This document shows, in pieces, positions 4,793 through 31,776 of a DNA stretch of 45,594 bases. Both the position numbers and the translations under genes were made by a program. The notes below the pieces were generated by a model that was not told the DNA's origin, ran no database searches, and saw nothing but the letters and a program-made list of their open reading frames with translations. The stretch spans positions 1 to 45,594 of the IMG/VR virus record IMGVR_UViG_3300041402_000679. One strand, given 5' to 3'. The stretch comes from a virus. The first letter of the stretch is position 1. Every line of letters begins with the position of its first letter.

Positions 4793-4962
4793 TTCTTTAG
4801 CCTCCCGTTCCAAGCCTTGATAGCTTCAGCTTCAGTTTGTTTGTTAGGCCCGCTTGCTCCACATATCATACAGTGAACATTCCAATGGTCATCCCGATAA
4901 CGGTCTTGATAAATTTCTTCCTTTTCTTTACAAAAAGGACACGGTTCAAGTTTCTCTTTCAT
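4789..4962 (-). CDS. Lar-like restriction-alleviation zinc protein
   Basis: The 57-residue frame shows the Lar family pattern: CPFC (C8/C11), WNV-C-x2-CGASGP (C31/C34), then TEAEAIKAWNGR. Lar proteins modulate host type I restriction-modification, favouring modification of phage DNA, but many family members are untested. It overlaps the methyltransferase stop by ATGA and so is probably translated together with it, which fits a shared anti-restriction role (inference). Confidence 0.75.
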   Translation of the reverse strand: MKEKLEPCPFCKEKEEIYQDRYRDDHWNVHCMICGASGPNKQTEAEAIKAWNGRLKK

Positions 4963-5657
4963 TCAAATAGTCCTTTCTGGCCTTGTCTCTGCTCTTTTAC
5001 AGGAACGCCGGTATCTACGGCCTTGAGCCTCATTCTGGCTATCTCACAATACTCGCTCGAAATGTCTATGCCTATGTAGCGGCGGCCTAACATCTTGGCG
5101 GCTACGCAGGTTGTGCCAGAGCCACAGAAGGGGTCGAGGATTAGGTCGCCTTCTTTTGTAGAATTTACAATCAGATACGCAATCGGCTTTAATGGTTTTT
5201 GGGTAGGATGTTTTCTGTTTGCCCCCATTACAATTCCCTCTTGGATAATATCGTCCCAACAATTATTTAATCTATGAAGTCCTTTACTGCCGTATAAAAT
5301 CGGTTCATACCTGAAATTGTATAGTTGTGGCGGTTTTGGCTGTCCGTGTTTTTTGTCCCAAATTATGATGTTATGCAGTTTGAAATATGTTTGGAATATC
5401 GGCAAAATATCTAAAAATCTCGTAGAGGCTGCAAACATATAAATCGCACCGTCCTTTTTTAATACTCGATGCAATAGTGGCAAAGGAATAAGCGACATAT
5501 TAACAGTATCGCCAATCATATATGGTTCACCTTTTTTTTTGTAAGCCACCCCATACGGCGGGTCTGTCAGCACCAAATCCACCGAATTATCCTCAAAATC
5601 TTTGAGAACCTCAAGGCAGTCTCCGCATATAACTGTATTGATTTTGTCTATGGTCAT
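4959..5657 (-). CDS. Site-specific DNA methyltransferase, beta class (N6-adenine or N4-cytosine)
   Basis: The 232-residue protein has TDPPYG (residues 31-36, catalytic motif IV) before DPFCGSGTT (175-183, AdoMet-binding motif I), the beta-class order, and HPTQKP (150-155) typical of this group. It would methylate phage DNA, probably against host restriction. No cognate restriction enzyme is adjacent, although an HNH gene lies two genes upstream. Start and stop overlap both neighbours by ATGA. Confidence 0.9.
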   Translation of the reverse strand: MTIDKINTVICGDCLEVLKDFEDNSVDLVLTDPPYGVAYKKKGEPYMIGDTVNMSLIPLPLLHRVLKKDGAIYMFAASTRFLDILPIFQTYFKLHNIIIWDKKHGQPKPPQLYNFRYEPILYGSKGLHRLNNCWDDIIQEGIVMGANRKHPTQKPLKPIAYLIVNSTKEGDLILDPFCGSGTTCVAAKMLGRRYIGIDISSEYCEIARMRLKAVDTGVPVKEQRQGQKGLFE

Positions 5658-6203: not shown

Positions 6204-6919
6204 CGTTTGCTTTTGCCGCCTAATCTGAAAACATTAAAAATCCGCAACCTGTCGCCGATTCTCTCATCGAAACTACTGGCCAGGTTTTCTACGCTTTTGT
6301 TTGAGGTCACAAAGGTTGGCCGATAATGTTCCAGCCTCATATCGAGCAAGACTAAAAATGTCTTTAGGCTGAAATCAGACTCCAAGCTGCCGATACTCTT
6401 GGTCGTACCCACATCCTCAATAAAGAGCTTATCACAGTTTAAGAATGGCTGAATAATGCCCCATTCGGTCTGTATAGCTTTGGGGTTAAAGGTATCTCTT
6501 AGCCGAAGGCACAACAGCTCGTAATGTATCCTTTCAACAGTAAAGCCTTCGGTTATATATTTCTTGGCTAAAGCTGACATCGCATAGGTCTTGCCCACCC
6601 CCGCAGCACCCCAAAGTAGTATGCCCGTATCAATTTCCTTACTGAATACGGCCTGTAATGCATGTGGCAACTTGGCAATTTCAGCCTTGATATACCGCTC
6701 TGGCACTGTTTCAAGTAATAATATCTCTTGCTGCTCTGCTGGTAGCGCCTTGTACCCTATTGCACGCTGGCAGACGTGGCATAGCTTGCCAAGTAAGCCG
6801 TCGGCGGCACGAACTTTGCATATTTCGCATTTACTCGATGGTTTCACCAATATTTGAGTCTTGGGCGGCGAAATCAGTTCGCCTATTTTGACTGTGTTTT
6901 TCAGTTTTCGGGACTCCAT
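6200..6919 (-). CDS. DnaC/IstB-like AAA+ helicase loader
   Basis: Start set at 6919 (MESRKLKNTV) because GGAGTAATT precedes that ATG; the open frame extends back to a TTG at 7006. The 239-residue product has an N-terminal CxxC...CxxC zinc knuckle (C31, C34, C47, C50), Walker A GAAGVGKT (104-111), Walker B LFIEDVG (165-171), and a TSN sensor segment (205-207). It should load the host replicative helicase on phage DNA with the neighbouring replisome organiser. The first 89 bases overlap that neighbour in another frame. Confidence 0.85.
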   Translation of the reverse strand: MESRKLKNTVKIGELISPPKTQILVKPSSKCEICKVRAADGLLGKLCHVCQRAIGYKALPAEQQEILLLETVPERYIKAEIAKLPHALQAVFSKEIDTGILLWGAAGVGKTYAMSALAKKYITEGFTVERIHYELLCLRLRDTFNPKAIQTEWGIIQPFLNCDKLFIEDVGTTKSIGSLESDFSLKTFLVLLDMRLEHYRPTFVTSNKSVENLASSFDERIGDRLRIFNVFRLGGKSKR

Positions 6920-7517
6920 AATTACTCCAAGTGATAATTTTTTGCTTCCAATTCCGAACTTTTTTGCCCTTGCTATCAACCCACCCTGATTCAGTAAAAT
7001 AGTCAAAGAATGTTTTTGCGTTCAATGTGTATTTTTTTTCTTGAATGTATTTTTCAACTTCTTGAAAGGTTGGTGGTGTGAATACTTTTTTGTTTTGTTT
7101 TACTTTACTTTCTTTTGTTTTATTTGGTTGGTTCGATGGCTGAACCGTGGTTGAACCGTGGTTAAACCGTGGTTGCCGTGCCGCCGCGCTTGCAAGTCCT
7201 GCTTTACGCTGATGTTGCAAGAATCTCTTTGCCTTAGCCAACTCTTTCCGCACTCTTTTGTGTGTTAAATAGCCATTTTTCTCAGCAAACTTTTTTTGCA
7301 CAGTTTTCCAGCTTGATTCAAAATTTATATCGGTATTACATAGTTTTTCTATGCGTTTCGGGTCATTCAAAATCTTGCCGTTATTGAGATACATATAGAA
7401 AATCACACTACAATATATCCCCCGCTCCGTGCTGTTCATTAGCTGAAAGTCAGGGTCGGCAAGGAAATCCCCCGATTCCAACTGGACATACTTTATATTA
7501 CCCATTTTATCATCCAT
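6831..7517 (-). CDS. Replication organiser / DnaD- or DUF1376-like initiation protein
   Basis: The 228-residue product (start chosen at MDDKMGNIKYVQLESG) has an N-terminal winged-helix-like region with the DUF1376-type phrase FLADPDFQLMNSTERGIY. A Gln/Asn-rich linker follows, then a C-terminal segment (YFTESGWVDSKGKKVRNWKQKIITW) typical of phage replication initiators ahead of a DnaC-like gene. It probably binds the phage origin and recruits the loader. The starting ATG is uncertain among three nearby candidates. Confidence 0.75.
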   Translation of the reverse strand: MDDKMGNIKYVQLESGDFLADPDFQLMNSTERGIYCSVIFYMYLNNGKILNDPKRIEKLCNTDINFESSWKTVQKKFAEKNGYLTHKRVRKELAKAKRFLQHQRKAGLASAAARQPRFNHGSTTVQPSNQPNKTKESKVKQNKKVFTPPTFQEVEKYIQEKKYTLNAKTFFDYFTESGWVDSKGKKVRNWKQKIITWSNYGVPKTEKHSQNRRTDFAAQDSNIGETIE

Positions 7518-7666
7518 AAGAAAAAAAGCCCCTTTGGTTGGTAGCAAATACGACAGAGTCGAAATGCACCGCAGGGGCTAATTTGAGCTTAATTAGATAT
7601 TCTATCGTACTCACTACCATTTCCCCTATCATACCCCCTACCAGGCTATTGTCAAGTAAAATATGA

Positions 7667-7915
7667 TTATTTTTTCGCTTTTACTTTCTCCAGTTTTATG
7701 CCGTTCTTGAGCTGGGTTAGCTTTAGCTTGCATTTGGTGTTCTTGCGGAGCTTGAGGGCAGGGAAATACCTTTCAAATAAATCGACACAAAAGCTATACA
7801 ACTCATCGCCATCAAAATCGCCCGTTACTTTTGCCCAAGGCGGTTCTTTTGTCCAAAGGGCGTAATCCCATTTATCTCTACTCAACCACAATATCCTTGT
7901 CTTTTTCTTTGCCAT
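7667..7915 (-). CDS. Unknown 82-residue basic protein
   Basis: ATG 7915 is preceded by AGGGAG. The product MAKKKTRILWLSRDKWDYALWTKEPPW ... ends in a lysine-rich tail. The tryptophan-rich core suggests a small folded protein. Its start lies inside the end of the 47-residue gene upstream. Function unknown. The 149 bp between its stop and the replication organiser hold no supported gene. Confidence 0.65.
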   Translation of the reverse strand: MAKKKTRILWLSRDKWDYALWTKEPPWAKVTGDFDGDELYSFCVDLFERYFPALKLRKNTKCKLKLTQLKNGIKLEKVKAKK

Positions 7916-8021
7916 AATTTAACTCCCTTTTGGCTTCCCTTGCCTTTTTCAGACCTTCAGCGGTTACTTTCAATAGGTTATAGACATTTCTTGCATTGGC
8001 TTCGTATTGCTGTTTAGTCAT
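7878..8021 (-). CDS. Unknown 47-residue helical protein
   Basis: The frame MTKQQYEANARNVYNLLKVTAEGLKKAREAKREL... is strongly helical and charged. It overlaps YopX-like and 82-residue genes on either side, which suits this overlapping operon. No family is recognised; the alternative is that only the neighbouring frames are used. Confidence 0.45.
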   Translation of the reverse strand: MTKQQYEANARNVYNLLKVTAEGLKKAREAKRELNYGKEKDKDIVVE

Positions 8022-8388
8022 TGGTTTTCTCCTCGTGGATGTTGCCGATGACTTCAAGGTCTGTAAAATTCCATAGCGGTAATTGTCCTACTTTTTTAAT
8101 ACAAAATGCACCATCAAGATATTTTATTTCTGCTGTATGTAATTCATCTGAAGAATGTGTTTTATATTCAACTATATCCCCCTCATATATCTCTTTGCCG
8201 TTCTTGTCCTTGAGGCCGGTGAACTGCATAAGGATATAATTTTCAAATTCTTGGAGTTGAATTTCTGCTGTCATACTTGTCTGGTGAGTAACTACGGCTA
8301 TTTGTCCAGCAAGAGAGCCTATCCAGAAAGCTTTAACCATTCGCTTGTATTTTGTGTCCCACGCTCTAAACTTTATATCTCTGCTCAT
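8014..8388 (-). CDS. YopX-family protein
   Basis: The start at 8388 (MSRDIKFRAWDTKYKRMV) gives the typical YopX beginning, and the middle reads LMQFTGLKDKNGKEIYEGDIVEYK, the hallmark of the family, with the ending LEVIGNIHE. YopX proteins are frequent in phages and prophages of many bacteria; their function is unknown. A longer frame to 8418 adds ten residues without a better ribosome site. Confidence 0.9.
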   Translation of the reverse strand: MSRDIKFRAWDTKYKRMVKAFWIGSLAGQIAVVTHQTSMTAEIQLQEFENYILMQFTGLKDKNGKEIYEGDIVEYKTHSSDELHTAEIKYLDGAFCIKKVGQLPLWNFTDLEVIGNIHEEKTND

Positions 8389-25009: not shown

Positions 25010-25543
25010 CTACCTGCCAATATGCCTACTAAACAAATCACTTCCTGTGAAAGTAGTCCCTGTTGCGGTTCTGCCAGTTGTAGTTCCGCCGCCACCAAAG
25101 CCGCTCAAAAACGTTGTACCTAATAATGCTAATTGTGTACCAAACTGAATATTAGCCCGCCTCGCAGCGTTTTTGCCCTTTTGCCTTGCGAGCCTGCCCT
25201 GAAGCCTGTCAAGTTCGGCCTGAGACTCGGCACGCCTTCCTGCTGTCTCACCTTCGAATTCTATTAGTAATCGTTCGAGTTCAATTTCAGCGGCCTGCTC
25301 GGCAGCCAAGTCGCCGGCCACGAGACTACCGAGACCTCCTCCCTTAGCCAATTTGGCAGTTAAGGCGCTTTTTATCTCCTCGCCTTTTTTAACTAATCGC
25401 TTTTGGCCAAAGGCGGCTTTTTTTCTTTGTGCCTCCGCTTCCTGTTCTGCAACAAGAGCGTTATAGTTTGCTATATTCTGGGCACTCCTGCCTTCAGCCC
25501 TTAATCCTTTTGCACCGCTTAATGTTTCAAATAAACCTGACAT
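25010..25543 (-). CDS. Internal virion protein (T7 gp14-like), 177 residues
   Basis: Helical N-terminus with repeated AEQEAEAQRKKAAFGQKRL..., a Glu/Arg-rich centre (AQAELDRLQGRLARQKG-like), then a glycine-rich hydrophobic segment (LALLGTTFLSGFGGGGTTTG) that could insert into membranes. This matches T7 gp14-type proteins which help form the ejection channel in the outer membrane. Assignment is by composition and synteny. Confidence 0.65.
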   Translation of the reverse strand: MSGLFETLSGAKGLRAEGRSAQNIANYNALVAEQEAEAQRKKAAFGQKRLVKKGEEIKSALTAKLAKGGGLGSLVAGDLAAEQAAEIELERLLIEFEGETAGRRAESQAELDRLQGRLARQKGKNAARRANIQFGTQLALLGTTFLSGFGGGGTTTGRTATGTTFTGSDLFSRHIGR

Positions 25544-25971
25544 TATATTATCCTTACATACAAATAAGCATCGCTTTTATCCGGCATATACTGTTCCATT
25601 GTACTCTCACGCTTGAATCCGAAAAACTCTATCATTTTTATAGCCTGTTCAAATTCCGTCCTTACCGCAGCCTCCGCCCGCCAGAGATTGTTTTTCTTGA
25701 TTAGAAATTCCATCTTGTCTTTTATGGCCTCCAAAGCAAGCAAGCCATAAATGCCGTGTTTTCTGCAATCAGCGGTCAGCATTAACCATAATAATCCCAC
25801 GCCTTCCCATTTCACTTGTAGCCCGCCCACAGCCACTATGGCACTTTCGTAGATAACTGTATAACAGTTGTCATCAGGCACTTCCATATATGGATAGTTC
25901 TTAACCGCTCCCTCAAAAGGATTTTGCCGAACAAAAGCCAAATCTTCCTGTGTGGTTTTTCTAAATTCCAT
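25543..25971 (-). CDS. GNAT-like internal virion protein (T7 gp13-like)
   Basis: 142 residues with an acetyltransferase-like layout: MEFRKTTQEDLAFVRQNPFEG, strands around AIVAVGGLQVKW, a helix after GIYGLLALEAIKDKMEF, and IKMIEFFGFKRESTMEQYM near the end. T7-like phages carry such a GNAT-fold protein right after the nozzle gene. Whether it acetylates anything is unknown. It overlaps both neighbours by one base. Confidence 0.7.
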   Translation of the reverse strand: MEFRKTTQEDLAFVRQNPFEGAVKNYPYMEVPDDNCYTVIYESAIVAVGGLQVKWEGVGLLWLMLTADCRKHGIYGLLALEAIKDKMEFLIKKNNLWRAEAAVRTEFEQAIKMIEFFGFKRESTMEQYMPDKSDAYLYVRII

Positions 25972-28900
25972 TATCTACTTGTCTTTTCGACCCTTGGTAC
26001 TATCCCTCTTACCACGCAGGGCAAAGGGTCTGACTGTGAAATAATTAGCGTATCATCAATGTCAAAACCGCCGTCAAAGGCAACTACAATATCTCCGGTA
26101 AATAATCCATCGACTATACTACTGTTCTTCCATCTCACATTATCCCAGTCAATAGGAAACAATTCCGTATCAGAAGAACCATATTTTGCATTCACGGTAT
26201 TGTGGAAGCTGAAAACAACTTCCGATATTTTCTTGATACTACCGTGAGTAGTTCCTGCAACCGTGCTAACATCCATTCTCATCGGTATTGCCTGTGAAGT
26301 GTAGGGAAGTCCGCCCCTCACGTTTCTTGCAGCAGTTGAAAGCGTAATCTGGCCATTGGTTACTACTTGCTTCTCCAGTACCTCGCCATCAGCTAAAATT
26401 GCAACGGTTTTTTCTTCAAGATGGTCGTATCCAGTTATGACAGTTATCGGCTCACCATTATAAATAACACCACTATCAACGAAGAAAGCATTTTCCTTTC
26501 TAATGTCGAGTAGTCTCGACTGGAATTTCTCTATGTAGATTTTGTTTTCACCATCAATAGCCCTTACAATCGTAATCCAAACCTCATCTTCCAAAGCGGC
26601 GGGAATAACCATAACGGACTGCACTAACCCATCCATAGGATGCTTTGCCCAGGCAACAACGTTCTGTTCCCGCTCGTAACTTAATGTAATTAAATCCCCG
26701 TTAGCAAGTACGCACCACAAAATCGAATCCGGATTCCTCTGGTGAGCGAAACAAACTATTCCAGAAACCGTGATATGCTCGGCCAAAGCGGTCAGGTCAG
26801 GTGCAATGTATTTTTGCCTTTCTTCCCTGAATGTGAATTCTCTTACTTTTCTGCCAACGAAATCGACGAATAATATCACAGAACCAACTTCTATTATTTG
26901 TATGTCCGCACTACCATACGCCGTCTGTTTTTTCATATCCCAGTTTTTCGGGGTCAGGGATTCATCTAAGGGCGCTCTTATACGCCATTCATCCCCCGCC
27001 GTACCTGCAGCCAATGTTTCAAGCGAACCCAGCCATTTGCCACGATTAGCAGTTGGAAGCGTTAGTGAAAATGAATCCGCATCATTTATTCCAGCTTCGA
27101 AATCTTCAAATTTTCCCGTTTCGCTTAACCAAATATCCTGCTGGTCTGAATTAGTGAATCCATACACAGAACGCTCTTCAAAGAGCGTAATCGCCGCCGG
27201 ATAACCTCTCACTCCTGACCAAGCTCCTTCTGCCCACCTCTTTGTTTCAATCGTCTGGCCGACCGCTGAAACAACTGTTATTTCAGCAGTTTTATTGGAA
27301 GTAATTCCGTTTATTCGTACAATCCCCGACTGCGTACTTGACGTGGCTGCCAAGTCTGCTTCAAGAGTTCCACTCGTATAAGCGGTTACATTTATTCGGT
27401 ATTTTACATTATCGTCTTCTTCGCTTTGTTCAAGCTGAACATTCCTGCTGCCCACACCGTCTGTTATTACCGATATATACGTTCTGTACGGTTCCCAGCC
27501 GGCATCATCTTCGTTTCTTTCCAAGGCAACAGTGGCATCCCAGTTTCCGTGGGTGTTGAAATTAAAATCACCTTTTATATCGAGTGGAATTCCTATTGTC
27601 CCTACACTCGTTGCAGAGCCGCTGACCGAACTGGTGTTAGCAATGAGACTGGCGGATATTGTTCCATACGAGTGTGATGTAACATTTATATGGTACTGGA
27701 CGTTTTCTGTAGTTTCCGTAGCTTTATAAGTCTGTGGGCCACTTGTGAAATTTACCACATTTTCCCTGGTCACCCAGTCATCATCAGTTTTTTGGAGAAA
27801 TACACTACCTCCCCAGCCAGTGGAAGTAATAGAAAAAATATAGTCGCCGTAAACATCTATCACCTCACCTATGATTCCGGTCTGAGAGCCGGTTTTCTTT
27901 CCATTTGTCTGCCGATTCACACGGGGATGGGTAAGTTTGAACAAGGCGCCGATGTGCCCGCTCTGAAACGTTCCTGCCGAGCGGGTAAGGATTCCGGCGT
28001 CCCCCTCATTAGTTACATCGACATTCATCGTAACACCATCATCATTTGCAATGTCGTTTCTTTCAATAAACGGCCCCTTCTTAAATACAATATCTTCAAG
28101 TACAAAAGTTGTTGGTGTTGTTCTTTTTAATTGAGCTTGAGGATAAGATGGATGGGTAATCCACATAACATCAGCACTTTGTTTTGTCTGAAGCTGAAGT
28201 AAATCGGAAGATTGATAAGGAGTTACTGTCTCAACGTGAACTTCGCCAGCTCCCAACAACGGTTCTTCGTTGAAATAAAACCTTGCATATTTGTCACCAA
28301 ACTCAATCGGATACGCTATGGTAGAAGAGAATATAAACGGCATCATTCTTACAGTATCGAGGGGAGCTAATGTGTTAGGCAATTCTATCGTTACACTTAA
28401 CGCAAGTGTGGAAGGTATAACGGTTACATTCTGCTCAATCGTAACAGAAATATCATTAAGAGATAGGGATAATGACAATACAGCCGGTAAAACAATAACA
28501 TCTATAACAACCGATGGGGCAAAAAGGGTAAGAGTTGAAGTCAATGCTGATACTCCGTGCGTTTTGTCCACTACAACAGAGGGCGCATTTAGCGTTGCCG
28601 TTAAGGTTACGGCATCAGGAAGTATTGTAGGGCTATCATCAATATCGATAGAAGTAGACAAAAGGCTCAAAGATAAAGCTAATACATCCGGCGTCACTGT
28701 TATTGCAACATTCGTTTCCTTAAAAGCTGCAACGCACATACACCAGTCATCAGCTCCGCCATAAAGACCCGCACCGTAAACTCCAGCCCCATAAACGCCT
28801 GTTGTCCAGTCCGTGGCTATGGCAGCGGCAACCGCCTGTAGGGTATATTGGTTGCTGTCGGAATAAAGACCGTTATCGGTTGCGTTCAATTCTGTCCCAG

Positions 28901-29378
28901 ATTGGTCTATCGGGGCATAATCCTGACCAGAACCTAATACCCCGACAATGACCGCTCCGTTTACAGTTGGTGTTACCGATACGGAAGGACTGGCGGAGAG
29001 TCCGATATTGCCGCCTTCAACATCAAGAGCGCTTGTAAAGCCAGAAGCTACATTATAACTCGATGCCTGGACGTGTAAGGTTAAAGAGGTGGGATTTGGA
29101 ATGCTGATTTGATATGCAGCACTAACGTCTGGTTCTAAAAGATACCACAACTCACAACCTGTTTCAGGACGCCTACTGGGTACTCTTGCTTCGTCGGCCT
29201 GGGTTAATTCAACACCATTATAAGTCGGCGCACCGCCTGAGCGCTTTGCAATCCGACCAGCAGCCTTAATTACTATGCCAATAACAAGAAGTGTAGCATT
29301 CGCCCCACAGGTATAGGCACTCGTAAGCGGATTTGAGTTTCCGGTAAACCTTAAGTTGGTATCAAACGTGTGCGCCAT
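25971..29378 (-). CDS. Chimeric nozzle protein: unrelated N-terminal domain plus main body of tail tubular protein B
   Basis: 1135 residues in three parts. Residues 1 to about 225 are a domain of the type MAHTFDTNLRFTGNSNPLT...ANATLLVIG. Residues about 226-338 are a run of beta repeats (VTPDVLALSLSL, ILPDAVTLTATL, VLPAVLSLSLSL, VIPSTLALSVTI). From about residue 340 (TVRMMPFIFS...FGDKYARFY) the sequence is the main body of T7 gp12-like nozzle/stabilisation proteins, including ERSVYGFTNSDQQDIWLSETGKFEDF and EWRIRAPL. The usual N-terminal end is missing here and found separately at 30473-30649. The protein forms the distal tail tip. Confidence 0.8.
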   Translation of the reverse strand: MAHTFDTNLRFTGNSNPLTSAYTCGANATLLVIGIVIKAAGRIAKRSGGAPTYNGVELTQADEARVPSRRPETGCELWYLLEPDVSAAYQISIPNPTSLTLHVQASSYNVASGFTSALDVEGGNIGLSASPSVSVTPTVNGAVIVGVLGSGQDYAPIDQSGTELNATDNGLYSDSNQYTLQAVAAAIATDWTTGVYGAGVYGAGLYGGADDWCMCVAAFKETNVAITVTPDVLALSLSLLSTSIDIDDSPTILPDAVTLTATLNAPSVVVDKTHGVSALTSTLTLFAPSVVIDVIVLPAVLSLSLSLNDISVTIEQNVTVIPSTLALSVTIELPNTLAPLDTVRMMPFIFSSTIAYPIEFGDKYARFYFNEEPLLGAGEVHVETVTPYQSSDLLQLQTKQSADVMWITHPSYPQAQLKRTTPTTFVLEDIVFKKGPFIERNDIANDDGVTMNVDVTNEGDAGILTRSAGTFQSGHIGALFKLTHPRVNRQTNGKKTGSQTGIIGEVIDVYGDYIFSITSTGWGGSVFLQKTDDDWVTRENVVNFTSGPQTYKATETTENVQYHINVTSHSYGTISASLIANTSSVSGSATSVGTIGIPLDIKGDFNFNTHGNWDATVALERNEDDAGWEPYRTYISVITDGVGSRNVQLEQSEEDDNVKYRINVTAYTSGTLEADLAATSSTQSGIVRINGITSNKTAEITVVSAVGQTIETKRWAEGAWSGVRGYPAAITLFEERSVYGFTNSDQQDIWLSETGKFEDFEAGINDADSFSLTLPTANRGKWLGSLETLAAGTAGDEWRIRAPLDESLTPKNWDMKKQTAYGSADIQIIEVGSVILFVDFVGRKVREFTFREERQKYIAPDLTALAEHITVSGIVCFAHQRNPDSILWCVLANGDLITLSYEREQNVVAWAKHPMDGLVQSVMVIPAALEDEVWITIVRAIDGENKIYIEKFQSRLLDIRKENAFFVDSGVIYNGEPITVITGYDHLEEKTVAILADGEVLEKQVVTNGQITLSTAARNVRGGLPYTSQAIPMRMDVSTVAGTTHGSIKKISEVVFSFHNTVNAKYGSSDTELFPIDWDNVRWKNSSIVDGLFTGDIVVAFDGGFDIDDTLIISQSDPLPCVVRGIVPRVEKTSR

Positions 29379-29406
29379 TTATTTTATTCCCAACGAGTTT
29401 TGAAAA

Positions 29407-29886
29407 TTACTGTGCGCCCATTGCCATTACATTAAATCCCCTGTCTATTGCAGCGCCAGCGTGAGTAAAGGTATAAACGTCGACAGAGCCAACCAATTGA
29501 TTGGTATCGTTGGCAATTTCGCCGTTTGTACCGGCTACCATAGCCACAACAGCATAACCTGTGGAAGAGAAATCGGTGTCCCAAGTTACTCTATATTGCC
29601 CTGTTGCAAGTTTGCTTGTTGATGTTACATTATAAGACGCAAGGTCTGCTCCAGCGCCTGAAACTCTTGCCCATCCCTTTACAATCTGCTCCGTTGAAGC
29701 AGGATGTATTTGGTCATCTACATATTTCTTATTGGCAAGTTCAGCATCAGCCGTTGGGGCAGCAGATGTAGTTTGCGCAGCGCCATCGTCTACTTTGCCG
29801 TCAGCGTCTAAAGACACATCTGTGTAGGCATTTAGTTCGGTTCCCCAAGTTCCATCAGAACCACCCACCGTTGGTTTTGTAGCCAT
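29407..29886 (-). CDS. Tail-fibre-like structural protein, 159 residues
   Basis: Starts ATKPTVGGSDGTWGTELNAYTDVSLDADGKVD, a stretch seen at the N-terminus of many phage fibre or minor structural proteins. TADAELANKKYVDDQ follows and then a beta-rich C-terminal domain (YRVTWDTDFSSTGYAVVAMV). AAAGGAG precedes the start. It lies inside the insertion that splits the nozzle gene. Confidence 0.7.
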   Translation of the reverse strand: MATKPTVGGSDGTWGTELNAYTDVSLDADGKVDDGAAQTTSAAPTADAELANKKYVDDQIHPASTEQIVKGWARVSGAGADLASYNVTSTSKLATGQYRVTWDTDFSSTGYAVVAMVAGTNGEIANDTNQLVGSVDVYTFTHAGAAIDRGFNVMAMGAQ

Positions 29887-29901
29887 TGCTTATCTCCTTT
29901 G

Positions 29902-30309
29902 TCACGCGAGAGTTATAATTCCGCTTGCATTCCACTGGATGGTGAACGTACCGGCAGCGACCGTCTTTGCCCCGCCAAAATCTATGGAGCAAATAAGGCT
30001 ATTAGCCGCCGTGTCGTCCCATATCACAGCGTGATAAGCTGTAAAAGTTGCAGACGTCCACGCAGTATCGCTACCGTCATCATCCCACTTAGTCGTCGCA
30101 CCTTCTGTAACAGCTGGTGAAGACAATGTAGCACCGCCCTGAGTGTAACCACCTGTAGATGCTAATTCATTGTCTGTAGTATAAGTATGATGGGTTGCTG
30201 TAAAACCGTGTGAGTTGTCATACAGTGCTACCTTGATAGTATCAGCTTCCAAATCCACCACTTTGTTCATCAGATTTGCCTTGAAGCGATTATAGATGCC
30301 AGAGGCCAT
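29902..30309 (-). CDS. Virion decoration or fibre-like protein, 135 residues
   Basis: The product MASGIYNRFKANLMNKVVDLEADTIKVALYDNSHGFTATHHTYTTDNELASTGGYTQGG... is a widespread phage structural family: N-terminal helix, IKVALYD strand, GYTQGGATL, a WDD centre and a TIQWNASGIITL ending. Exact role (head decoration or tail) is not settled in the family. It is one of three small genes inside the nozzle split. Confidence 0.75.
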   Translation of the reverse strand: MASGIYNRFKANLMNKVVDLEADTIKVALYDNSHGFTATHHTYTTDNELASTGGYTQGGATLSSPAVTEGATTKWDDDGSDTAWTSATFTAYHAVIWDDTAANSLICSIDFGGAKTVAAGTFTIQWNASGIITLA

Positions 30310-30311
30310 AA

Positions 30312-30476
30312 CTATTCTCCTTTCTTAATATTACCCGCTATTTGTAAGCAGGGCACTTCAATAATAACGTCAACCCGACCGTCAGGATGACGAATCTCCT
30401 TTGCTGTTGCCTTAATAACGGGCTTGCCGGAAGAAGTATCCACTTCAACCAGTTTATTACCAATTCTCTTTTTCAT
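30312..30476 (-). CDS. Unknown 54-residue protein
   Basis: Starts at ATG 30476, overlapping the TGA of the nozzle N-terminal piece, with AAGGAGG upstream. Product MKKRIGNKLVEVDTSSGKPVIKATAKEIRHPDGRVDVIIEVPCLQ is beta-rich. Similar short proteins (HPDGR-DV-V-VP) occur beside fibre/decoration genes in phages. Function unknown. Confidence 0.6.
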   Translation of the reverse strand: MKKRIGNKLVEVDTSSGKPVIKATAKEIRHPDGRVDVIIEVPCLQIAGNIKKGE

Positions 30477-30649
30477 TTTGCCTCCTTTATAAATCTCGTG
30501 CCAGGCCTGCGCTCTATCGCACCATATATTCGAGGGAGAAAGTTATCCAGCTTGCGGCAGCCGGATTTGTATTTTTCAATATCAGACCTTGTGTCAATAA
30601 GGGGAGTGTAGAGGCCGCCATTAAGATTTACTATCGGTATATTTATCAT
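30473..30649 (-). CDS. N-terminal fragment of the nozzle protein (tail tubular protein B), 58 residues
   Basis: The frame MINIPIVNLNGGLYTPLIDTR... continues YKSGCRKLDNFLPRIYGAIERRPGTRF. This is the N-terminal signature of T7 gp12/stabilisation proteins, which normally run on directly into a R-x-I-P-F-x-F-S segment. Here the frame stops after GTRFIKEAK, and that next segment (VRMMPFIFS) is found at residue 340 of the 1135-residue protein 2.1 kb downstream. SD AAAGGTAG and ATGA overlap show the fragment can be translated as its own protein. Confidence 0.8.
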   Translation of the reverse strand: MINIPIVNLNGGLYTPLIDTRSDIEKYKSGCRKLDNFLPRIYGAIERRPGTRFIKEAK

Positions 30650-30652
30650 TTT

Positions 30653-31012
30653 CTACCTTTCTTTGTATACGTTAAGTACTTTACTCGACTGCGAAGACAA
30701 AACATCCAACTGGTCAGAGAGAGATTCCAGAGTATCGCTATCACTGCCGATAAGTGTCTCTGTGAAATTTTCACCTTCGATATAAGCACAATTAACTTCA
30801 GGACTTTCTTCGCCAAAACCAACATTTTTAGTTCCATCATTAACTACAGCTACATCTCCTACTACTACATTGGCATCAACAACTGTATAATAACCAGTAG
30901 AGCCTATTTCTGGCAAAGATGTACCGGCAGTCGTTCTTACTGTACCATCCGGTTGCAATGCTTCATAAGTAAGTGTTTCGCCGGGTTTCCAGCCAAATTT
31001 AAGCCTTGCCAT
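30653..31012 (-). CDS. Unknown 119-residue structural-region protein
   Basis: Sequence starts MARLKFGWKPGETLTYEALQPDGTVRTTAG and reads as a beta-rich domain with a helical end (LGSDSDTLESLSDQLDVLSSQSSKVLN-like). It shows one-base overlaps with the tail tube A-like gene. Such a YEALQPDG-type protein is found near connector genes in some phages. Function unknown. Confidence 0.65.
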   Translation of the reverse strand: MARLKFGWKPGETLTYEALQPDGTVRTTAGTSLPEIGSTGYYTVVDANVVVGDVAVVNDGTKNVGFGEESPEVNCAYIEGENFTETLIGSDSDTLESLSDQLDVLSSQSSKVLNVYKER

Positions 31013-31776
31013 TACCAGAACCTCTCATTCGTACCTGTTATTCCTAACCCGCCGTGACGAGCCAGATTCCAGTCGCTTCTGCCGCCGGTATCGGTTTCGT
31101 CCTCGTCTACTGCCAAAACCTTTGGCATTAGTTTTTTAAGGGCGGTGTCGATTTTTACTTGTATCTTTGCATCTCCGCCTGCCAACGGCCCAATCATTTT
31201 GTCAGCCAAGAGCCAAACAAAGACCTCGACAAATAACGAATCAAACTCGGTAACATCCGTGACCTTTTTAATGTATAAGAGACTTACCGCAGAAAAGTTG
31301 GTCAAAAACCTTTGCCCTTCGATGGCGTGTCTGTTCTTTCGGGAAGTAACTCCAGTCTCTTCGTTGATAGACCTGAATCTCGAAAAGTCGCTCGGCAAGT
31401 CCCACATAAAGTCCCATTCAAACTCCGGTGTATAATCACTCGCTACAAGAGTAGTCCAATTTGCGTGCGGAGGTTCGTTGGTGGAACTTGACGTATGAGC
31501 TACGGCACACTTATACCATACAGAATCATTCAATGTATATTGGTCGGTAGTATAGATACTGTCCGCAGCCCAGACCGAAGCAAGCCTTATTCTTACTCTC
31601 GAAAATCGCCACCAATAAGAACGAAGCAGAGCATCTCGTGTTGGTTCGTAATGAAGACGACATTGAATAGCCTGGAGAGAAGGGTCGGTCTCTACATTGC
31701 TTATCCTTGTAGCACCAAGCCTGCCAAGGCTCATATTGCACAGACTTGTTTCTGATAACGTTTCTGATAAGGCCAT
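31012..31776 (-). CDS. Tail tubular protein A / head-tail adaptor (T7 gp11-like)
   Basis: 254 residues. The start ETSLCNMSLGRLGATRISNVETDPSLQAIQCRLHYEPTRDALLRSYWWRF is the usual beginning of podovirus adaptor proteins, and the rest includes a carbohydrate-binding-like insert (YTLNDSVWYKC...NWTTL) and LFVEVFVWLLADKMIGPLAGG. It forms a ring between portal and nozzle. Gene order, after the capsid gene and before the nozzle, supports it. Confidence 0.85.
   Translation of the reverse strand: MALSETLSETSLCNMSLGRLGATRISNVETDPSLQAIQCRLHYEPTRDALLRSYWWRFSRVRIRLASVWAADSIYTTDQYTLNDSVWYKCAVAHTSSSTNEPPHANWTTLVASDYTPEFEWDFMWDLPSDFSRFRSINEETGVTSRKNRHAIEGQRFLTNFSAVSLLYIKKVTDVTEFDSLFVEVFVWLLADKMIGPLAGGDAKIQVKIDTALKKLMPKVLAVDEDETDTGGRSDWNLARHGGLGITGTNERFW

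Follow-up and report, generated by a model that had tools for sequence, protein, structure and literature searches.

A tail nozzle encoded as two genes in an uncultured podovirus, with structural genes and added domains at the break

Introduction

The nozzle is a gated, core component of the short tail of phages. Each of its subunits is one chain in the solved structures that we cite. In T7, whose nozzle protein is gp12 (PDB 6r21), the excerpts of PMC6702177 used here describe a 45-residue N-terminus that gives three strands of the C-terminal platform barrel and completes the platform, a platform that faces the adaptor, and a fibre that docks at the outer surface between the adaptor and the nozzle. 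The nozzle of Cobetia phage Carin1 (gp36, PDB 8ck1) is also a single chain. Other phage proteins are encoded in two pieces: Aeh1 NrdA, the large subunit of the T4 topoisomerase, and the DNA polymerase of phage 25 are split by a homing endonuclease or an intercistronic sequence, and their two chains are thought or shown to reassemble, as given in the excerpts of PMC2988022 used here. We found no description of a split nozzle in the literature searched, which comprised open-licence PMC papers and included searches directed at this point. Here we analyze such a nozzle in IMG/VR record IMGVR_UViG_3300041402_000679, an uncultured podovirus (short-tailed phage); "the window" means the whole stretch of 45,594 bases, which is possibly incomplete.

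The window nozzle belongs by sequence, over both of its pieces, to the same family as the Carin1 nozzle and phrog_376, and an unsplit relative shares the Carin1 fold; the Carin1 protein is one chain, whereas the window encodes two, with an added domain and repeats on the larger one. The same unsplit relative has the fold of T7 gp12 from its first residue, although gp12 is a single chain and no sequence match connects it to the window. Like the split enzymes as described in the cited excerpts, the window nozzle is one protein encoded as two chains and has unsplit relatives; in contrast to them, it is part of the virion, its break holds structural genes, and its new ends carry domains. Phage enzymes that are split and reassemble are known; a split virion nozzle with domains on its cut ends is apparently new.

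Results

The nozzle is encoded as two open reading frames

The first-pass annotation, made from the sequence alone, had proposed that the nozzle gene is interrupted cleanly at one place and that both parts are retained, and the profile searches bear this out. The five open reading frames (ORFs) that it listed, of 58, 54, 135, 159, and 1135 codons, are all in place on the minus strand. The first of them, which we call N58, matches positions 4 to 60 of phrog_376, and residues 341 to 1131 of the 1135-residue body match positions 64 to 708 (E 3.2e-155), so that the two together cover the 712-position profile end to end, with three positions absent at the break. Residues 341 to 1135 of the body also match the Tail Nozzle of PDB 8ck1 (E 6.9e-74). 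About 2.1 kb separate the end of the N58 gene from the first nozzle codon of the body. A second, complete nozzle N-terminus, which would have undone the proposal, is absent: a phrog_376 search over the whole record, which may be incomplete, found two places only, N58 and the body. Encoding in one chain, usual in the phrog_376 family, is not what we see here, and we therefore regard this nozzle as a variant whose membership of the fold is not thereby excluded.

The gene order on the minus strand is adaptor, a 119-residue gene, N58, the 54-, 135-, and 159-residue genes (g54, g135, and g159), the body, and a GNAT-like internal virion protein (Table 1). The pieces are placed as expected of a podovirus nozzle, with the adaptor upstream and internal virion proteins downstream. 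For g54 there was no PHROG match, and Pfam gave one weak, chance-level match; relatives of g135 occur in Gordonia, Caulobacter, and other phages. The beta-rich stretch of the body comprises, counted by eye, about five units of approximately 22 residues each.

Table 1. Features of the nozzle locus in the window, in minus-strand gene order.
Feature	Position	Strand	Match or remark
Adaptor, tail tubular protein A type	31012..31776	-	phrog_394, E 2.7e-35
119-residue gene between adaptor and N58	30653..31012	-	Likewise upstream of intact nozzles in nearest relatives
N58, detached N-terminal nozzle segment, 58 residues	30473..30649	-	phrog_376 positions 4-60, E 3.3e-16
g54, 54 residues	30312..30476	-	Start overlaps N58 stop by 4 bases; clade identity 57-75%
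g135, 135 residues	29902..30309	-	phrog_644, function-unknown family; clade identity 61-80%
g159, tail-fibre-like, 159 residues	29407..29886	-	phrog_3484 tail fiber, E 5.8e-12
Nozzle body, whole ORF, 1135 residues	25971..29378	-	Three sections: added domain, repeats, nozzle core
Body residues 1-228, added N-terminal domain	28695..29378	-	No family match
Body residues 229-340, beta-rich repeats, then linker to break	28359..28694	-	Alignment
Body residues 341-1135, rest of nozzle: beta-propeller and C-terminal platform part	25971..28358	-	phrog_376 positions 64-708
GNAT-like internal virion protein, directly after body	25543..25971	-	phrog_4177 and phrog_308

The split is conserved in close relatives

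The split arrangement recurs in related contigs from other samples, with 59-77% identity over the body. Searches with the body gave six relatives; the body is whole in five of them and truncated by the contig end in the sixth. The clade was enlarged by searches with N58, the core, and the added domain; a stand-alone N58 has about 58-61 residues wherever it was read. Considering pairs with unsaturated, finite dS, the median ratio of nonsynonymous to synonymous substitution rates (dN/dS) is 0.076 for N58 (17 of 55 pairs), 0.098 for g135 (22 of 45), 0.156 for g54 (20 of 36), and 0.091 for the body (12 of 21). The split arrangement is under strong purifying selection in close relatives. Because it recurs in related contigs of other samples and the dN/dS of N58 is low, the split is real, neither chance nor an assembly slip.

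In the alignment of g159, the first 60 or so residues are constant and the remainder is variable, as in a fibre whose anchor stays constant. Some members carry an extra ORF in the cassette of genes at the break (L001, L014).

We also compared conservation by column between 25 detached and 42 attached N58 segments of the same clade, related sequences that do not constitute an independent test. The Spearman coefficient was 0.85, and all 17 columns conserved in the attached segments are conserved, with the same residue, in the detached ones. A freed piece should have drifted at the conserved columns, so N58 has probably kept its old job.

The break recurs, mostly at two sites

We classified 206 loci. 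All three nozzle segments (the N-terminal one, core part A from its start, and core part B) were present in 147; the other 59 were dropped before counting, and 41 repeats of the same stretch were merged. Among the resulting 106 distinct loci, 79 are unbroken, 14 are broken at site 1 (the break of the window), 10 at site 2, and 3 at both. The loci came from searches seeded with split sequences, so the 27 broken loci out of 106 are not a prevalence. The first-pass annotation had suggested looking for other phages with the split or the unsplit gene, and relatives of both kinds exist.

In a tree of 102 rows that includes the window and is restricted to loci with enough of core part B, 26 of the 59 rows of one fully supported clade are broken, compared to 1 of the 43 rows outside it. 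A second tree of 56 hand-chosen rows (54 from that clade and two outgroup rows) has well-supported branches that force at least four changes of the detached state and at least four of the site-2-only state. The break may nevertheless have arisen once and been followed by re-fusions, since these counts are blind to gain versus loss. Where breaks were read out, the stop codon mostly has another start codon within about 0-30 nucleotides after it, and each of the three stop codons occurs; the breaks thus look like gene ends rather than read errors. In L149 and L172, break 2 is displaced downstream by some residues relative to the other break-2 positions, and L020 and Xanthomonas citri phage CP2 are broken at a third place, so that two loops account for most cases only.

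A first scan of prokaryote genomes with the body alignment found no relative, and a second scan with N58 found one contig of a metagenome-assembled genome (MAG) of Phycisphaerae, L207 (JAQURJ010000015.1, 5989-7145), with a detached N58 and the core directly after it. The presence of this phage-like contig in such a MAG could be a hint of the host or a binning error.

Unbroken relatives retain a tailspike-like gene after the nozzle

The nearest unbroken relatives have 42-51% core identity. In the seven that we opened downstream of the nozzle (L046, L047, L048, L050, L051, L053, and L068), the intact nozzle is followed by a tailspike-like gene of 600-830 residues, present in L050 as two ORFs of 339 and 236, and then by a GNAT-like protein, directly or after small genes. 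In the split clade there is no gene between the body and the GNAT-like protein. Among the 44 clade loci where the distance was measurable, more than 1.2 kb between the nozzle and the GNAT-like gene was lacking in 22 of 23 broken loci versus 6 of 21 unbroken ones. PF12708 was found in none of 8 split and in 7 of 8 unsplit records, all of these being fragments; the match in unsplit record G011 lies far from the nozzle and does not reach the cut-off. These observations are a hint that splitting is linked to the loss of the downstream tailspike.

The loop at the break in 78 unbroken ORFs measures 1-11 residues (median 3.5), so none of them has an in-frame domain there, and we reject, for the ORFs measured, the idea that unsplit members carry a domain inserted in frame at site 1. 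In seven GenBank phages (Vibrio 1.182.O, BPP-1, Shamal, HTVC203P, epsilon15, Piluca, and Carin1) the body is one ORF, and tblastn places the N58 match within that same ORF in six; the N58 of Shamal, missed by tblastn, was recovered in the same ORF by the profile.

The cut maps to a beta-hairpin loop in the model of an unbroken relative

The predicted structure of an unbroken relative (L139, 752 residues, alignment of 58 rows) has a mean predicted local distance difference test score (pLDDT) of 91.9 and a predicted template modelling score of 0.86. From its first residue the model superposes on the Carin1 nozzle 8ck1 (Z 41.5, root-mean-square deviation (rmsd) 2.0, 649 residues) and on T7 gp12 6r21 (Z 26.6, rmsd 3.4, 535 residues), and the fold was also compared by Foldseek. 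In this model, break 1 maps to a beta-hairpin, in the loop (residues 56-63) that joins strands 50-55 and 64-69; break 2 maps to the loop joining strands 356-360 and 368-371 (residues 361-367).

The alignments of several propeller-only structures to the model begin at about residues 33-52. Because of this, and because the T7 N-terminus lies in the platform, N58 is expected to contribute the strands of the platform together with the first strand of the propeller, a transfer from T7 by homology. We infer that the cut lies at the boundary between platform and propeller and not at the distal tip. The earlier proposal that the inserted domains are displayed at the tail tip gets no support from this position, since the N-terminal 45 residues of T7 gp12 belong to the adaptor-facing platform in the PMC6702177 excerpts.

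Duplicated N58 segments, fusions, and added modules

Every split record of the window's clade has the added domain, and none of the 8 unsplit records tested does; elsewhere, relatives of the domain occur in L126-L130. In unrelated phages such relatives begin separate repeat proteins (L128, 5001-6485; L129, 4953-10385), one of them with 1810 residues and SPSPS-like repeats. The relative in L128 adjoins head genes, and that in L129 is in a repeat protein.

Other broken loci have different modules. In L126 and L127, a bare N58 is followed by a second N58 fused to Laminin_G_3 (E 1.2e-10 and 2.6e-12, above the cut-off) and then by a relative of g135; in L126 the added domain is joined straight to the core, without repeats, and the sequence of L127 stops within that domain. 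L138, L150, and L165 have two N58 copies each and a core that begins at the break, with N58 fusions of 191 residues (L138), 338 (L150), and 85 and 871 (L165), the long one in L165 with a GLUG match. L195 has two short N58 genes, with a pectate-lyase tailspike gene (6489-8063) between them and the core. The core is bare from the break in L138, L150, L189, L195, and L207, with N58 still present. At site 2, the downstream fragment often opens with an added stretch of about 200-600 residues, with GLUG motifs in L135; in L140, L184, and L200 it opens almost directly with the core. A single insertion event is too narrow a reading, given the recurring break, the second break point, and the duplicated and fused N58.

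A shared tail of about 86 residues with repeated CYEN/CYQN-like motifs follows N58 in L165 (5998-6414), L153 (6001-6429), and L192 (5141-5563).

A nozzle encoded by two genes in cultured phages

In Xanthomonas citri phage CP2 (L209 1793-4896; NC_020205.1 15292-18395), ORF19 (463 amino acids) corresponds to residues 11-314 of 8ck1 and ORF20 (570 amino acids) to residues 316-826, the two genes overlapping by one base in the annotated coordinates. ORF19 is annotated as a hypothetical protein, and the split nozzle is not annotated in the record. Xanthomonas phage Olaya has the same two genes. As in the window, two chains together cover 8ck1; unlike in the window, the break is at the third place, after about 310 residues of 8ck1, and the genes are adjacent. 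CP2-like phages form plaques and are described as podophages in the excerpts of PMC8143317 used here. A nozzle split over two chains therefore does not preclude infection. ORF19 and ORF20 fill phrog_20269 and phrog_15566 almost end to end, and the split suggests why parts of such nozzles fall in separate PHROG families.

Other observations in the window

The adaptor of the window and of L001 has about 50 extra residues around positions 66-120 that are absent from most relatives, with only a chance-level carbohydrate-binding match (PF02839, E 0.46). A DNA methyltransferase is encoded at 4959-5657 on the minus strand (PF01555, E 1.4e-38).

Discussion

The explanation that we favor, and consider likely, is a two-chain nozzle in which N58 would dock in trans, with a receptor-binding cassette at the cut. 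The nozzle would be made of two separately translated chains; N58 would supply its first strands, those of the platform and probably the first of the propeller, and dock non-covalently on the body, whose C-terminal part would form the rest of the platform, with one N58 per body in the hexamer. Cutting the chain in a surface loop would free the N-terminus of the body, bearing the added domain and a repeat stalk. The gap genes, including g159 with its constant anchor and variable end, and the added domain would form the cassette, taking the place of the tailspike gene kept after the nozzle in the nearest unsplit relatives. The detached N58 probably remains a part of the nozzle, joining it in trans, because the break lies in a beta-hairpin loop, the fold is shared from residue 1, and the T7 N-terminus completes the platform barrel. 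The first-pass suggestion that both parts still assemble is therefore a probable one, the 17 shared conserved columns, the position of the break in a model loop, and the two-gene nozzle of a cultured phage speaking for it. We infer that the added domains bind cells; the lectin, GLUG, and tailspike modules at breaks in relatives support a receptor-binding cassette, and this suggests that these phages open the nozzle to hang cell-binding parts on the cut ends.

Several results weigh against this explanation. The association between splitting and loss of the downstream tailspike is not significant when kinship is counted (1-3 independent pairs). The added domain has 58-84% identity, similar to the core, and a fast-changing receptor-binding domain would differ; it found no counterpart among GenBank phages or in NCBIfam, and the PHROG and Pfam matches of the body all lay outside residues 1-228. 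A model of the window body by AlphaFold (17 sequences) had a mean pLDDT of 48.8, too poor for a fold search. Finally, the window encodes a 768-residue fibre-like ORF at 16065-18371 on the minus strand, repetitive and beta-rich by eye, with no relative in the 15 other split or unsplit records searched, so that the cassette may be unneeded for binding. Our search for the T7 tail-fibre anchor PF03906 is uninformative here, as it gave no match anywhere, controls included.

Some of these points fit a two-chain nozzle whose added domains and inserted genes have a structural or decorative role and bind no host, the receptor-binding protein being another gene such as this ORF. Conservation of the added domain at the level of the core agrees with that idea, as do its relatives beside head genes and in a repeat protein of unrelated phages, and we regard it as the most serious competitor, if an unlikely one, because laminin-G, GLUG, and pectate-lyase tailspike modules stand at the same place in relatives and g159 has the anchor and variable end of a receptor-binding protein. 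N58 could also be a leftover, or an assembly helper outside the nozzle, replaced there by the added N-terminal domain or another protein; its presence in particles is indeed deduced from sequence. We judge this improbable, since its conserved positions equal those of attached segments, its dN/dS is low, its duplicated copies are also kept, and it persists in the five loci whose core begins right at the break and lacks a replacement domain.

The pieces might instead be joined into one chain by RNA splicing, an intein, frameshifting, or bypassing, and such joining has precedents in phages. Nevertheless, Rfam scans of the window and of seven related loci gave no intron or other family, and no intein or endonuclease family is present in the products (PHROG, Pfam, and NCBIfam scans of N58 and the body). 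No homing endonuclease or intercistronic mobile sequence lies at the window break, where the gap genes match phrog_644, a tail fibre, or nothing, and these genes are conserved and under selection. The gene after the break is in a different frame in L126, L144, and L189, where it overlaps or abuts the one before, and the use of all three stop codons points the same way. We rejected RNA or protein splicing on the Pfam, NCBIfam, and Rfam scans and on the stop codons and frames at the breaks, and joining of any of these kinds seems very improbable. An assembly or sequencing artefact deserves mention because most members are metagenome contigs, but the same structure in many contigs from different samples, in the bacterial MAG contig L207, and as the two-gene nozzles of cultured CP2 and Olaya makes it scarcely credible.

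A broader idea, which we put forward tentatively, extends the two-chain nozzle with docking in trans: N58 might be a general docking tag, duplicated and fused to different adhesins, so that one hexamer could hold mixed receptor-binding chains, and repeated gene fission at a few loops might install receptor-binding domains in the DNA-ejection machine. The fusions behind this idea carry laminin-G (L126/L127), GLUG (L165), and domains without a family name (L138, L150, and L192). A clade that again and again divides its nozzle over two or three chains, for the most part at two loops, and adds other domains to the new ends would illustrate how receptor binding and the ejection gate can be merged in a phage, and would offer a natural split-protein docking system for attaching proteins to the phage tail.

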